Of a stretch of DNA of 48,169 nucleotides, positions 41,395 to 47,036 are shown piece after piece; the stretch's first letter is position 1; each line of letters opens with the position of its first letter. The stretch covers positions 1 through 48,169 of the forward strand of contig NKIU01000017.1 in NCBI GenBank assembly GCA_002256245.1, in the 5' to 3' direction. The DNA is from Pseudorhodobacter sp. PARRP1. Lineage in GTDB: Bacteria > Pseudomonadota > Alphaproteobacteria > Rhodobacterales > Rhodobacteraceae. The notes below the pieces were generated by a model. That model made no database searches. It was not told the DNA's origin and saw only the letters and a list, made by a program, of their open reading frames with translations. Made by a program: the position numbers and the translations under genes.

Positions 41395-42246
41395 ATGACA
41401 CGCACTTTCACCTTTCCCGGCACGGAACTTCAGGTCAACCGCATGGGCTATGGCGCCATGCAATTGGCGGGGCCACACGTCATGGGCCCTCCCAAGGACG
41501 AGGACGAGGCCCGCGCCGTTCTGCAGGAGGCGGTCGCGCTGGGTGTCAACCACATCGACACCAGCGACTTCTATGGCCCTCATCACACCAACCGGCTGAT
41601 CCGTGAGGCGCTTTTCCCCTATGCCGCAGGTCTGGTTTTGGTCACCAAGATCGGCGCCTGGCGGGATGAGGCGGGCGCCTGGCACCTGCGCCGCGACGCA
41701 GATTTCCTGCGCCAATCGGTCGAGGATAACCTGCACCGGCTGGACCTGTCGCAGATGCAGATCGTCAACCTGCGGATGGGCGGCCCCGAGGATGACATTG
41801 AGGCGCCGATGCGCGTCATGCGCCAGATGCAGGACGAGGGCCTGATCGCACATATCGGCATCAGCACCGTGACCGAGGATCAGCTGGCCCGGGCGCGCGC
41901 CATTGCTCCGGTGGTCTGCGTGCAAAACCACTACAATCTGGTGCATCGCAGCGATGACCCGATGATAGACAAACTGGCGCAGGACGGGATTGCCTATGTG
42001 CCCTATTTCCCCCTGGGCGGCTTTTCTCCATTGCAATCGGAGGTGCTGGCCGGTGTAGCCGCCGAGATGGGATCCAGCGCGCAAAAGGTGGCCCTGGCAT
42101 GGCTTTTGGCGCGCAGCCCGAACATTCTGGTGATCCCCGGCACCTCACGCCGCAGCCATCTGCGCGAGAACATTGAAGCCTCGACGTTGACCTTCACCCC
42201 ATCGCAACGCGCATTGCTGGACGGTCTCGCCCACAGTCAGGCATGA
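41395..42246 (+). CDS. Aldo/keto reductase
   Basis: A 283-residue NADPH-dependent oxidoreductase of the AKR superfamily. The catalytic Asp and Tyr are in NHIDTSDFYGPHHTN and the Lys in LVLVTKIG. The barrel continues through LHRLDLSQMQIVNLRMGG to VIPGTSRRSHLRENIEAS, the cofactor-binding tail. AAAGGAG stands 8 bases before the ATG. Regulated, probably, by the divergent LysR gene; substrate unknown. Confidence 0.93.
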   Translation: MTRTFTFPGTELQVNRMGYGAMQLAGPHVMGPPKDEDEARAVLQEAVALGVNHIDTSDFYGPHHTNRLIREALFPYAAGLVLVTKIGAWRDEAGAWHLRRDADFLRQSVEDNLHRLDLSQMQIVNLRMGGPEDDIEAPMRVMRQMQDEGLIAHIGISTVTEDQLARARAIAPVVCVQNHYNLVHRSDDPMIDKLAQDGIAYVPYFPLGGFSPLQSEVLAGVAAEMGSSAQKVALAWLLARSPNILVIPGTSRRSHLRENIEASTLTFTPSQRALLDGLAHSQA

Positions 42247-42339
42247 CCAACCCCCGCGCATTGAGGGGCTTCCGTCTGTCCTGAAGCCTGCGGCCCGAAT
42301 GACGTGATCGGGCCGCCACAGGGCTTCACGTCGGGTCCG

Positions 42340-42929
42340 GCCTACACGCCTCGATCTGCGGTATCCTGCGCCGGGTTCGGTGCGCAGGATCGTCGGATTG
42401 GCGGGGTCGGGCTCAATCTCGGCGCGCAGTTTGCCGATGAAGACCCGAAGATATTGCTTGTCGTCATGACGTGCCAGGCCCCAGACCGCCGGAAGGAGCA
42501 GGCGGTGTGTGGCCAGGCGTTTGTCCAGATCGCTGATCACGACCCGCAAGACCTCTGCCCGTCCCCGGGCGGCATGGCGGGCGGCGGTCTGCCCGCGGGC
42601 TTGCAATTCGCTGATACCAAACGGCTTTTCCAGATGATCATCGGCGCCGAGGTCCAGGGCCGCGAGCTTTTCGGCCTCGTGGTCGCGTGCCGACAGGATG
42701 ATGACCAGCACCATCGAGAAAGCGCGCAGGTCGGTCAACACCGAATTGCCGTCGCGGTGAGGCAGGCCGAGGTTCAACAGGACGGCATCGGGCGCGATGG
42801 AGGCGGCTAGGCGCAAGGCCCCGGCCCCGATCAGGGCGGGGTCCGGGTGTCATATCCCGCGTTCTCCAGCCCGATGCGCAGCATGGTCTGGATTTGTGGG
42901 TCGTCATAACCGATCAGGATCACGGACAT
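42340..42929 (-). pseudogene. kdpE: Decayed kdpE (response regulator)
   Basis: It begins MSVILIGYDDPQIQTML and runs as a receiver start for 32 codons, then stops (TGA at 42831-42833). In another frame the receiver continues with VLLNLGLPHRDGNSVL, then SARDHEAEKLAALDLGADDHLEKPFG. The Asp of the first acidic pair and the phosphoacceptor context are altered. The winged-helix part is reduced to RLLLPAVWG, YLRVFIGKLRAEIEPDP and TEPGAGYR, with about 30 residues missing. These are KdpE landmarks. The ATG overlaps the kdpD stop (TGATG). Frameshift and deletions make it a pseudogene. Confidence 0.8.
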
Positions 42930-43400
42930 CAGACCTCAGCGGGAAGTTTGCCGCCGGGCAGGCGGACGACCATGCGAGTGCCGCGCCGCCGGACGGAGCG
43001 GCTTTGCGCTTCGATCGTGCCGCCCATGGCCTGCACCAATACCCGGCGGATCGACAGGCCAAGTCTCGTCCTCGGTTTGAGCCGATCCGTCCCGCCACAG
43101 CGATAAAATTTATCGAAGACCCGCTCCAGATCGGCGGGTTTGATCCCCGGCCCTTCGTCGGTCACGCTGATCGCCACTTGATCCCCTTGATTGCGGGCAT
43201 GGATGACTACCTCGCCTTCCCCCGCGTATTTATGAGCTTTGTCGGCCAGGTTGAACATGACTTGTGCTAAAAGATCCTGATCGCCTCGGATAAAGCGCAG
43301 ATCGGGGGCGAGACTGATCCGTGTCAGCCGCGCCGGATGGGTCCGCGCACAGCGATCGACTGCGTCGCGGATCGCATCGCCGACATTGACCCAGTCGCGC
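42929..43400 (-). pseudogene. kdpD: Decayed kdpD (sensor kinase) C-terminal remnant
   Basis: About 150 codons of a KdpD-type ATPase domain survive: DWVNVGDAIRDAVDRC, then SLAPDLRFIRGDQDLLAQVMFNLADKAHKYA, DEGPGIKPADLERVFDKFYR and MGGTIEAQS. The N box Asn is replaced (NLADKAHKY instead of NLLDNAAKY) and the G2 box reads TRLGLS. The histidine-phosphotransfer part and the large Kdp-specific N-terminal domain are absent, and the upstream reading (to 43492) is unrelated. No kdpFABC genes are present. Confidence 0.75.
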
Positions 43401-43598
43401 CGGTCCTGGGTCCACCAAAATGCTGCGGACGGCGTGAACTTCCGGTTTGGGGATCGACACCTTGACGCTAGCACCAGCCCGACGGGCAGCAATGGGCCGA
43501 CTACTCTTGGTCGTGAAACAGTGGTCGACCAAGGCCCCCGCTGTCAGAGGTTATGTCCGACGCCAGAGGCCAATTTTCCGGGTTCGGAAATCTCTCGC

Positions 43599-44315
43599 CT
43601 AGTCTAGCTTTTCCGCGTAGGCTCGCATGTCGATCATCGGCACTGTCGCGACCGTCTGCAGCCTCGAGATCAGTTCGAGGAGGAAGCGCGTTACAGGCTT
43701 CTTTTCCGCAAACAAAGAGTAGGCACCATCATCATTTAACCAGAAGTTGCCGCTGTCAGCAACGCAACCGACGTCGAGACGCTTGTCGCCCCGCCCTGCC
43801 GTGACGTAACCCAGCATGGTTTCACCAAAGACTGGGCTCCATTTGCAGCTGAGGGTCAAAATTCCACCCAAGACGGGCGTCAGTTCCTTCGCCTTTTTTG
43901 TGCCGTCGATCGTTGGGACGGGGAGCGAGGTGCGGTGCAGCCTGCGAACGGATGCAATCTTCTCCTGGGCGTAGCCGATGTGGCTCGCATTCATATCTTG
44001 CTTGGATTCAAACACTGCATAGACGCTCTCAGCGGGCACGACATGCTTATCCCTGAAGGTAAAAACAAGCGGCGTGTATTGCCGGTCGTGAATTACCACG
44101 TCGATCTGCTCGCTAAAGGTGCCTGTGCTATCGACAACGGTAGCCTTGATGGCATGATACCGGCGGGGAAGATACTTGTTAAAGAGCTCGATCCAGATTT
44201 CCTCGGTCGCGTCTCCAAGATCGGTCGGATGTCCAAGTGATTTCCGCGCGCGCTGCAGGTCGGCCGTCACCGACGCATTCAGCTCATTGAGAAGTATGGG
44301 AAGGGACCAATTCAT
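43599..44315 (-). CDS. DUF6602-like protein with PD-(D/E)XK-type nuclease signature (putative effector)
   Basis: A 238-residue soluble protein of DUF6602 type. The conserved block runs from an acidic helix (TEEIWIELFNKYLPRRYH, E38/E39) through VVDSTGTFSEQIDVVIHD (D72) to AVFESKQDM (E103-x-K105), spaced as in the PD-(D/E)XK nuclease fold. This is an inference from motif order, not a demonstrated activity. The C-terminal half (DVGCVADSGNFWLNDDGAYS onward) is unassigned. Its start overlaps the nucleotidyltransferase stop (ATGA), so the two are translationally coupled and probably act together. Proposed role: effector that is switched on by, or held inactive by, the partner enzyme or its product. 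Confidence 0.75.
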   Translation of the reverse strand: MNWSLPILLNELNASVTADLQRARKSLGHPTDLGDATEEIWIELFNKYLPRRYHAIKATVVDSTGTFSEQIDVVIHDRQYTPLVFTFRDKHVVPAESVYAVFESKQDMNASHIGYAQEKIASVRRLHRTSLPVPTIDGTKKAKELTPVLGGILTLSCKWSPVFGETMLGYVTAGRGDKRLDVGCVADSGNFWLNDDGAYSLFAEKKPVTRFLLELISRLQTVATVPMIDMRAYAEKLD

Positions 44316-45070
44316 TCGACAATCTGGTTCCAGTTGGTGGCCTGTCGCGCGATGGACGCCGCATCGGCCAGGTCCTGTTTCTCTTTCGCGGTCAGGTCAT
44401 CGGAAATTCTGTTATTAGTATTCGCAGGATCTATGAAAACGCCCATTTTGATATTATCGCGGACATAGGCCAGCGTCGTCCAGACATTCTGCGAAAGGTC
44501 ACCAACTTTATGACCGCGGCATGCCTCAATCGTGACGAGTTCCAGGTAGAAGGAAGGGAAAGTCAACCGCTTCTGCTCCCGCCATGCTTTCATGATCATG
44601 ATCTCTTCTGCGCGACCCGAGTTGCGAACTGTGTTAATGTGGCTGATGATGTTGGTTTGGGTCCAGGTCTGCTCTTTGCGGCGAAAGAGGCTATGAAACT
44701 CGCCTGTTGGTCCATGCCTGCGCGCCGGCACGACATCGACCGAATAGCCGCCAATTTTGATGCCGATTGAGACATTCTGCGGCCTCGGACCAAAACCATC
44801 ATCACGCAACCTGTTTAAGAGCGTGTTGTAGATGACCGAGAGGCTTTCCGACACTTGGCTCGAGAGAGAGGCGAAGATGTCGATGTCGGTGCCGCCACGG
44901 ATGGCCGTGCCCTTCGCAAAGGAGCCGCTCGGTTCCATGCTGACCAGATACTGGCCAGCCCATCGCAGCAGCGAGGGGCGCAAAGCCATCTGAACCCCAC
45001 GAGCTGGCGAATTTGGTCCTGTATCAACTCGAAGCCTTGCAAGAATTTGGCGGAGATAGGCGTCAGACAC
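44312..45070 (-). CDS. CD-NTase/OAS-like nucleotidyltransferase (Pol-beta superfamily)
   Basis: A 252-residue nucleotidyltransferase. The GS motif G49-S50 (PSGSFAKGTAIRGG) is followed by D62-x-D64 in TDIDIF and the third carboxylate D112 in YSVDVVPAR, a complete metal triad. The C-terminal helical part has FPSFYLELVTIEAC, and the tail FIDPANTNNRISDDLTAKEK resembles the DP(A)N-type end of 2'-5'-oligoadenylate synthase and CD-NTase proteins rather than MNT or CCA enzymes. A GTG start is used; GGAGAG lies 8 bases before it. It is the first gene of a two-gene operon with the DUF6602-like protein. It may make a (cyclic) oligonucleotide signal; product unknown. Confidence 0.85.
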   Translation of the reverse strand: MSDAYLRQILARLRVDTGPNSPARGVQMALRPSLLRWAGQYLVSMEPSGSFAKGTAIRGGTDIDIFASLSSQVSESLSVIYNTLLNRLRDDGFGPRPQNVSIGIKIGGYSVDVVPARRHGPTGEFHSLFRRKEQTWTQTNIISHINTVRNSGRAEEIMIMKAWREQKRLTFPSFYLELVTIEACRGHKVGDLSQNVWTTLAYVRDNIKMGVFIDPANTNNRISDDLTAKEKQDLADAASIARQATNWNQIVE

Positions 45071-45479: not shown

Positions 45480-47036
45480 ATGACGAAGATCAACCTTGAT
45501 GCCGTGACTGCGGCGCTTGATAAGCTGCCAAAGCTTTATCCCGGCCCGGGTGGCGTGGCGGGGGTGATGCTGGATGGTAAGGTGATTGCCGCCCGCGCTT
45601 GGGGCTTTGCGAATGTTGATACCGCGCAACCAATGACCACCGGCACACGTTTGCCGATCTGCTCGATCTCCAAGCAATTCACCTGTCAGGTGCTTTTGGC
45701 CACAGTGGGCGAGCCTGCCAAGCTGGATGGCAAAGTAGCTGCGTTCTTGCCACAGTTCACCGCAACATTGCCAACGGTCAAACAGTTGTGCGACAACCAG
45801 TCCGGCCTGCGCGATTACTGGGCCTTGACGGTTTTGCAGGGCGCTTTTGCCGAACAGCCGTTCCGGCGCGAGGATGCACTGCCGCTGATTGCGCGGATGA
45901 AGACCGGGCATTTCCCACCCGGCACGCAATACTCCTACTGCAACTGCAACTTCCGCATCTTGTCCGAGATGATCGAGGCAGAAACCAGCTTGGCGCTGGA
46001 TGCGCTTTACAAGCAGCACATCTGGGGTCCGGCACAGATGAAAACCGCCGTGCTGACGGCCGACACCAGCCGCCCAGAAGACGGTGTGGTAGGCTATGAG
46101 GGGAGCGACGCGACCGGGTTTTTCCCCGCCGAGAATGCAATCTATTGGGTGGGCGACGCGGGGATTTCCGCCTCGCTCTCGGACATGCTCGCCTATGAAG
46201 CCTGGATTGATGCCACGCGCGATGATGAAAGCAGCCTTTACCGTCGTGCTTCGGTGCCACCGAGTTTCGCCGATGGCAAGCCCGCCGCCTATGGCTATGG
46301 GCTTTCGCGCGAAACGATCGCGGGACTTAATTTCAGCGGCCATGGCGGTGCTCTACGCGGGTTCCGAGCGCATCGATTAAATGCCCGCGCGGCGCGGTTG
46401 TCGGTGGTGGTGATGTTCAACCACGAAGCCGACGCCCATGGTGCGGCAGAAGCCTTGGTTCAGGCCGCGATGGGCCTAAAAGCTCCGGCCGAAGCCCCAT
46501 TGCCTGATGGCTGGGATGGCCAATGGATTGGTCCCAATGGGCTTCTCACGCGCTTGGAATGTGGACGCAACTCTGCCAAACTACACCATGCCAGTGGGGC
46601 CGAGCGGCTAACGCTGGCCGCCGATGGTGGGCTGACATCGCCGGCGGCGGGGCTTGAGCGGCGAGCGACTGGCTTGACCCTGACGCGCCCGAAGGACAAC
46701 ACCGAAGCCACATTGGTGCCTTTGGCCATTCTGGATAACGCCAACGCCGCCGAGATTGCCGGGCAATATCACTCGACCGAGTTGGAAGCCTCGATGGAAA
46801 TTGTGGCGCGGGACGGCGCGGTTTATGCGCGATTCAGTGGCCTTCTGGGCAGTGGTCGGATGGAGCGGATGGCACCCGCTGGCCTTGATGTGTGGACAGT
46901 TGCCACCCGCCGTTCAATGGACGCGCCTGCACCGGGTGACTGGACGATGATGATAAAGCGCGATGCCAGAGGTGCAATAAGCGGGCTGACTTTGGGCTGC
47001 TGGCTTGCCCGCGAAGTGACATATCACCGTGTCTGA
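45480..47036 (+). CDS. dap: D-aminopeptidase (Dap), serine hydrolase of the beta-lactamase superfamily
   Basis: A 518-residue enzyme that removes N-terminal D-amino acids from peptides and amides. The penicillin-binding-protein-type active site is complete: S62-x-x-K65 (CSISKQF), Y153-C-N155 (SYCNCN) and H288-x-G (SGHGGAL). The serine/lysine and tyrosine positions are those of the Ochrobactrum anthropi enzyme. The C-terminal part (about 335-518) corresponds to the two antiparallel beta-barrel domains (B and C) of that enzyme, and total length agrees. No signal peptide is seen, so it is cytoplasmic. Confidence 0.93.
   Translation: MTKINLDAVTAALDKLPKLYPGPGGVAGVMLDGKVIAARAWGFANVDTAQPMTTGTRLPICSISKQFTCQVLLATVGEPAKLDGKVAAFLPQFTATLPTVKQLCDNQSGLRDYWALTVLQGAFAEQPFRREDALPLIARMKTGHFPPGTQYSYCNCNFRILSEMIEAETSLALDALYKQHIWGPAQMKTAVLTADTSRPEDGVVGYEGSDATGFFPAENAIYWVGDAGISASLSDMLAYEAWIDATRDDESSLYRRASVPPSFADGKPAAYGYGLSRETIAGLNFSGHGGALRGFRAHRLNARAARLSVVVMFNHEADAHGAAEALVQAAMGLKAPAEAPLPDGWDGQWIGPNGLLTRLECGRNSAKLHHASGAERLTLAADGGLTSPAAGLERRATGLTLTRPKDNTEATLVPLAILDNANAAEIAGQYHSTELEASMEIVARDGAVYARFSGLLGSGRMERMAPAGLDVWTVATRRSMDAPAPGDWTMMIKRDARGAISGLTLGCWLAREVTYHRV

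Follow-up and report, generated by a model that had tools for sequence, protein, structure and literature searches.

Two overlapping genes on the minus strand of the window, by which we mean the whole 48,169-nucleotide stretch of Pseudorhodobacter sp. PARRP1 DNA that was analysed, very probably form a two-gene CBASS operon of type I. Its most likely role is abortive infection, with NucC activated by cA3 from the cyclase. One gene (44312..45070, minus strand, GTG start) encodes a predicted short CD-NTase of 252 aa, i.e. a CBASS oligonucleotide cyclase, and the other (43599..44315, minus strand) a protein of 238 aa that belongs to Pfam DUF6602 and is assigned below to the NucC endonuclease effectors. 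The original prediction placed two coupled ORFs at 43599-45070, and both are present there on the minus strand. They share an ATGA (44312..44315, minus strand) that holds the stop of the NTase gene and the start of the NucC gene, and through this 4-base overlap the sensor and the effector are probably translated in a coupled manner. The prediction of a minimal two-gene defence-type operon was right. The further claim that the pair is a new module was wrong, as it consists of a full-length CBASS cyclase and NucC, and two-gene (type I) CBASS is already known.

Under this reading, phage infection would switch the cyclase on, and the cyclase would join three ATP molecules into cyclic tri-AMP (3′3′3′-cAAA, or cA3). 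This cA3 would bind the NucC trimer, the trimers would pair into hexamers, and the hexamers would cut double-stranded DNA, such that the infected cell would die ahead of phage release (abortive infection). The NucC biochemistry behind the model comes from excerpts of two papers (PMC8682760, PMC10419184).

The short cyclase and its likely product

The NTase matched the PADLOC cyclase model PDLC00803 from end to end (E = 3.5e-84, residues 2-252 to model positions 3-253 of 253). Fourteen other PADLOC cyclase models also matched, all more weakly than PDLC00803. The best score against the named NCBIfam CBASS cyclase models was 63.2 bits (cut-off 200), and Pfam SMODS scored 20.7, under its cut-off of 26.5. 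Because both fall below their cut-offs, general annotation would miss the short cyclase.

In searches of the PDB, E. coli CdnC was recovered at 5.6e-9 with the single NTase protein and at 8.6e-14 with a 19-row cyclase profile (profile A2, built without L006, L018, L024, L032, and L035). The same profile found Bacillus cereus CdnD (9sa4) at 4.2e-13. Further PDB relatives were 6p8u, 6p82, and 6p8j, the last of which is P. aeruginosa CdnD according to an excerpt of PMC13424991. At E values up to 0.01 the profile had seven PDB matches, six of them CD-NTase or bacterial nucleotidyltransferase sequences of the CBASS kind; the seventh, last and weak (0.006), was human OAS2. An archaeal CCA model matched the NTase at 3.5e-6 and CBASS_cyclase_a at 2.2e-17. 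When aligned with six CdnC-type cyclases in hhalign, the NTase gave a probability of 99.0 (E = 2.7e-18, 220 columns, approximately 27 per cent identity). The kinship of the NTase is therefore with CD-NTases rather than with tRNA or antibiotic nucleotidyltransferases, and the prediction of a CD-NTase of CBASS type holds given the end-to-end match to PDLC00803 and the CD-NTases among its PDB relatives. An AlphaFold2 model of the NTase, built from seven sequences (the window and six relatives), was of low confidence (mean pLDDT 47.2), so the assignment of the CD-NTase fold rests on sequence homology.

The residues G49-S50, D62, D64, and D112 all stand at the numbers given in the original prediction. 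The XGSX motif of the NTase includes S48-G49-S50 (codons at 44921..44929, minus strand), its DxD is D62-I63-D64 (44879..44887, minus strand), and its third catalytic Asp is D112 (44735..44737, minus strand). From the alignment with 9sa4, the ends of the segment T139-H144 (44639..44656, minus strand) are the equivalents of the Lid 1 Thr and Lid 2 His. The meaning of the XGSX motif and of the lid positions is taken from an excerpt of PMC13424991.

These positions are well conserved across a table of twenty-three short-cyclase rows, which excludes L024 (NTase in two pieces, with one stop) and the second L032 frame. The lid Thr and His were kept in 23/23 rows, SGS in 20/23, and the DxD and the third Asp in 22/23 each, the exception both times being L034 from a Calothrix plasmid. 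Among rows with an adjoining NucC, the DxD, third Asp, and lid Thr/His were kept in 19/19. The L034 short cyclase (L034:3492-4235) has Glu and Asn in place of the first and third catalytic Asp, lacks a NucC in the stretch examined, and is possibly inactive.

For CD-NTase clades C and D, the excerpt of PMC13424991 reports that a small first XGSX residue and a Lid 2 His accompany 3′3′3′-cAAA, that a Lid 2 glutamine accompanies cAAG, and that Lid 1 is a threonine. The window cyclase has SGSF, T139, and H144 at these positions. SGS and the His at Lid 2 point to cA3 as the NTase product. Excerpts of PMC8682760 and PMC10419184 give cA3 as the known activator of NucC, and the reading from the lid and XGSX residues and the reading from the NucC ligand concur on cA3. 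This putative product is thus read from a few cyclase residues together with the known ligand of the partner.

The NTase also resembles E. coli CdnC and the type III cyclases (6p80; CBASS_cyclase_a), with which it has in common SGS, the DxD, the third Asp, the lid Thr/His, and a C-terminal IDPxNxxN. It differs from CdnC in length (252 aa versus 321 aa) and in having no HORMA partner. Its gaps relative to CdnC lie near the N-terminus, in loops, ahead of IDPxNxxN (a gap of approximately twenty residues), and at the C-terminus.

The DUF6602 protein as NucC

The partner protein matched the PADLOC model PDLC00745, ‘Effector, Endonuclease (NucC)’, over residues 2-237 (E = 8.1e-96), and the PADLOC ‘NucC’ model at 6.9e-51. 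Its DUF6602 assignment in the original prediction was confirmed by a match to Pfam PF20247 (E = 1.3e-29). A search of the PDB at E < 0.1 returned five matches, from 4.8e-78 to 4.1e-39. The best of these (6q1h, 4.8e-78) is deposited as ‘Bacterial protein ORF C62’, which we take to be Pseudomonas aeruginosa NucC. The others were two E. coli MS115-1 NucC sequences (1.4e-72 for 6p7o, and 7.3e-72), Vibrio metoecus NucC (1.2e-65), and Serratia NucC (4.1e-39).

The residues E38/E39, D72, E103, and K105 were all found at their predicted numbers, and the assignment of the protein to the PD-(D/E)XK nuclease family was correct. D72 (codon at 44100..44102, minus strand) aligns with E. coli NucC D73, and E103-S104-K105 (44001..44009, minus strand) with E104-x-K106. 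The set D72/E103/K105 was kept in 30/30 NucC rows (with L015 and L016, which are remote DUF6602 proteins, and L032, of <200 aa, left out); the 6p7p and 6q1h sequences have Asn where the catalytic Asp stands. We also compared the residues that are presumably the cA3 contacts of E. coli NucC, namely R53, Y81, and T226. These align with R52, Y80, and T224 of the window protein, which were kept in 30/30, 30/30, and 28/30 of the NucC rows, respectively (again with L015 and L016 left out). Compared with the NucC proteins 6p7o and 6q1h, the window protein is thus alike over its full length, in its D..E-x-K set, and in the pocket residues that we presume to contact cA3.

Relatives of the effector were present in eighty-five plasmid records. 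Of the best sixty of these eighty-five, thirteen are named ‘CBASS effector endonuclease NucC’ as their product (50.6-53.6 per cent identity), and many others among the plasmid matches listed are named ‘DUF6602 domain-containing protein’. By these matches, ‘DUF6602’ and ‘NucC’ are labels for one family here, and the DUF6602 protein of the window is assigned to NucC, an established CBASS effector. The original prediction named NucC among the usual effectors and did not recognize it in the DUF6602 protein; its claim of a non-standard effector is contradicted by PADLOC, the PDB, and the plasmid product names. With the NucC matches and the conserved catalytic residues, this protein calls for no new effector class.

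Layout, neighbours, and spread of the pair

Type I CBASS consists of one cyclase gene and one effector gene (excerpt of PMC10419184), and this is what the window contains. We used tblastn with five HORMA/TRIP13 proteins and found no match in the window; the same search finds these genes beside long cyclases. One HORMA and one TRIP13 query also had no match in the window’s own genome, in a search run without a positive control. The nine flanking ORFs that were scanned all belong to families other than HORMA and TRIP13. The window therefore falls outside type III, which is recognized by HORMA and TRIP13 in the operon.

Long cyclases (approximately 321 aa) occur with HORMA, TRIP13, and NucC in L036-L040, and L041-L043 have TRIP13, two HORMA-type genes, a cyclase, and NucC. 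The difference is clearest for the E. coli plasmid locus L040, where NucC stands with a CdnC-type cyclase, HORMA, and TRIP13, whereas the NucC of the window has the short cyclase only. L002 is the sole short-cyclase locus with HORMA/TRIP13 genes, and these belong to a distinct TRIP13-HORMA-HORMA-cyclase set that has a cyclase of its own and starts 1.7 kb behind NucC. This region (L002:6001-11911, Rhizobium sp. BK376) holds two CBASS units side by side. A 232-aa protein with no NCBIfam or PADLOC match starts right after the cyclase-NucC pair of L002.

The flanks of the window pair include two truncated genes. The first is a response regulator (42145-42816, minus strand) whose best NCBIfam match is KdpE (2.9e-36, starting at profile position 41). 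The second (42929-43492, minus strand) retains the C-terminal part of a sensor histidine kinase. It matched NCBIfam WalK (5e-23), PnpS (2.1e-22), and KdpD (2.7e-21), and is likely a kdpD piece. The predicted decay of kdpDE was thus correct as to truncated two-component genes and as to KdpE, the best match; KdpD is just the third match and its identity is likely. On the other side is a full-length D-aminopeptidase (45480-47036, plus strand; NF009622, 5.8e-210). A repeat scan of the pair gave one direct repeat of 17 bases, lying within the genes, and no inverted repeat. Four promoter-like sites also all lie within the two genes. Since the repeat and the promoter-like sites are intragenic, they identify neither the edge of an element nor the operon promoter.

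Fifteen genomes of the window’s genus have at most single flank genes in common with the window, apart from L051, and no empty site was found among them. L051 is a stretch of 2879 bases from a genome of this genus, with NucC-like matches in two pieces (the best at 47 per cent over residues 141-237) and no short cyclase in the stretch. In rhizobial copies of the pair, a gene of approximately 280 aa lies near NucC on the downstream side (L020:7023-7865, L028:4960-5829, L029:4988-5830), where the window has the kinase remnants. The L020 copy of this gene had no NCBIfam or PADLOC match, and the L028 copy had no NCBIfam match.

We compiled twenty-seven short-cyclase loci, comprising the window, seven genome contigs, two further genomes, fifteen plasmid loci, and two predicted viral contigs. 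NucC adjoins the cyclase in 23/27 (22/26 with the window left out), and the pairing exceeds chance. The prediction that the two genes co-occur in other genomes was thus borne out. Three of the twenty-three have a broken NucC (L006, L032, and L052, the last split by an IS21-type element), and L024 has a cyclase with one stop. NucC is absent from the stretch examined in four loci (L018, L033, L034, L035), and the cyclase match of L018 stops at residue 206. The count takes in fifteen of the twenty-five short-cyclase plasmid records (H21-H43, H56, H57). For six records outside it (H25, H26, H28, H29, H30, H32), coordinates place NucC directly behind the cyclase; H36, H37, H56, and H57 are also outside the count. 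Compared with the two-gene CBASS that has a PDLC00803-family cyclase beside NucC, the window has the end-to-end cyclase match and the same neighbour as in these twenty-three loci, and we found no differences.

Based on longest-ORF starts, the two genes overlap by four bases in the window, L002, L005, L007, L017, and L028-L031, and by twenty-two bases in L003, L004, L008, L019-L021, and L023. Hosts are mostly Pseudomonadota (mainly Alpha- and Betaproteobacteria), plus one Paenibacillus plasmid, and the pair occurs on two predicted viral contigs as well as on genome contigs and plasmids. The nearest relative is L017, from the Paracoccus zhejiangensis plasmid pPZ02, whose proteins are 86 and 88 per cent identical to those of the window. 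The L017 pair shares the 4-base overlap and differs in being on a plasmid, flanked by Mu-type/TniB/TniQ transposition genes and an N-6 DNA methylase. One Tolypothrix contig (L005) has 95-99 per cent DNA identity to L008 from Sphingomonas metalli over several kb around the pair and may reflect contamination or recent transfer; given this identity, we left cyanobacteria out of the list of hosts. On a Calothrix plasmid (L035:934-4115), an E1-E2 gene (PDLC00837, 1.8e-176) and a JAB gene (PDLC00896, 1.5e-53) are followed by a divergent short cyclase. Judged by these matches, the compact cyclase family occurs in a type II-like layout too.

The source genome (4.35 Mb, twenty-eight contigs) has the NTase once and the DUF6602 protein once. 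In a sample of the class, the short cyclase was found in 1/385 genomes, which is the window’s own; a class-wide search of the 385 genomes with the NTase protein gave two matches outside this genome, both long cyclases. In the phylum sample the PADLOC model matched in 5/398 genomes, three with short cyclases (one the window’s own and one with a stop) and two with long ones. Such rarity of the short cyclase is what one would expect for a defence operon. Viral contigs scanned with the single NTase protein gave no match and gave two when scanned with the profile. Phage records gave no match.

Alternatives and significance

The pair could instead descend from a type III CBASS (CdnC-HORMA-TRIP13-NucC) in which the regulators were lost while the cyclase and nuclease survived, and NucC is indeed common to both layouts. 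We built a NucC tree of twenty-nine proteins, leaving out L015 and L016 (remote DUF6602), L032 (<200 aa), and L006 (<180 aa when trimmed). At least three changes between type I and type III are required on this tree, which would fit an exchange of NucC between the two layouts, though its well-supported branches force just one change and several rows are long-branched. The window NucC itself falls in a supported group of eight type I rows (97/98), which argues against a remnant of type III. So does the short cyclase, at approximately 250 aa as opposed to 321 and with a PADLOC model to itself. The two-gene layout also recurs in Alphaproteobacteria, Betaproteobacteria, and a Paenibacillus plasmid, and from this recurrence it looks old and stable. 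We consider loss of the regulators very unlikely.

Still less probable is a toxin-antitoxin-like pair, one of the two options named in the original prediction. The NTase would then hold the nuclease in check by modifying it directly or by binding to it. Carriage of relatives on plasmids would fit such a system, and so would the two overlapping genes, though beyond this overlap we found no such feature. No Pfam, PADLOC, or NCBIfam match of the pair points to an antitoxin. Both proteins instead belong over their full length to CBASS families, for which the logic of signal and effector is established, and the catalytic residues of the cyclase and the presumed ligand-pocket residues of NucC are kept. 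It is just as hard to credit that the pair, next to broken kdp-like genes, is itself a defence relic that has decayed and lost its function. The adjoining two-component genes are truncated, and relatives of the pair include the broken NucC copies and the interrupted cyclase described above. Both ORFs of the window, however, are full length with zero internal stops and have kept their key residues, and the nearest relative retains high identity in both proteins.

Taking the pair as a type I CBASS operon, we tentatively suggest, as a possibility that we hold somewhat doubtful, that the compact cyclases of approximately 250 aa are self-contained sensors that detect a phage product directly, free of the HORMA/TRIP13 control found with the longer NucC-linked cyclases. 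If so, the pair would represent the most compact cA3-NucC alarm that still works. Among the matches listed (best 20 of 118 and best 15 of 549) in the open-licence literature, no title dealt specifically with the short cyclase; the main CBASS classification work lies outside this literature. The pair can be accounted for with a known effector class, and the close DUF6602 neighbours of other short cyclases would by the same reasoning be NucC too. As a putative cA3-NucC unit without HORMA or TRIP13, it would be a tidy object for asking what triggers a CBASS cyclase that has no regulators.
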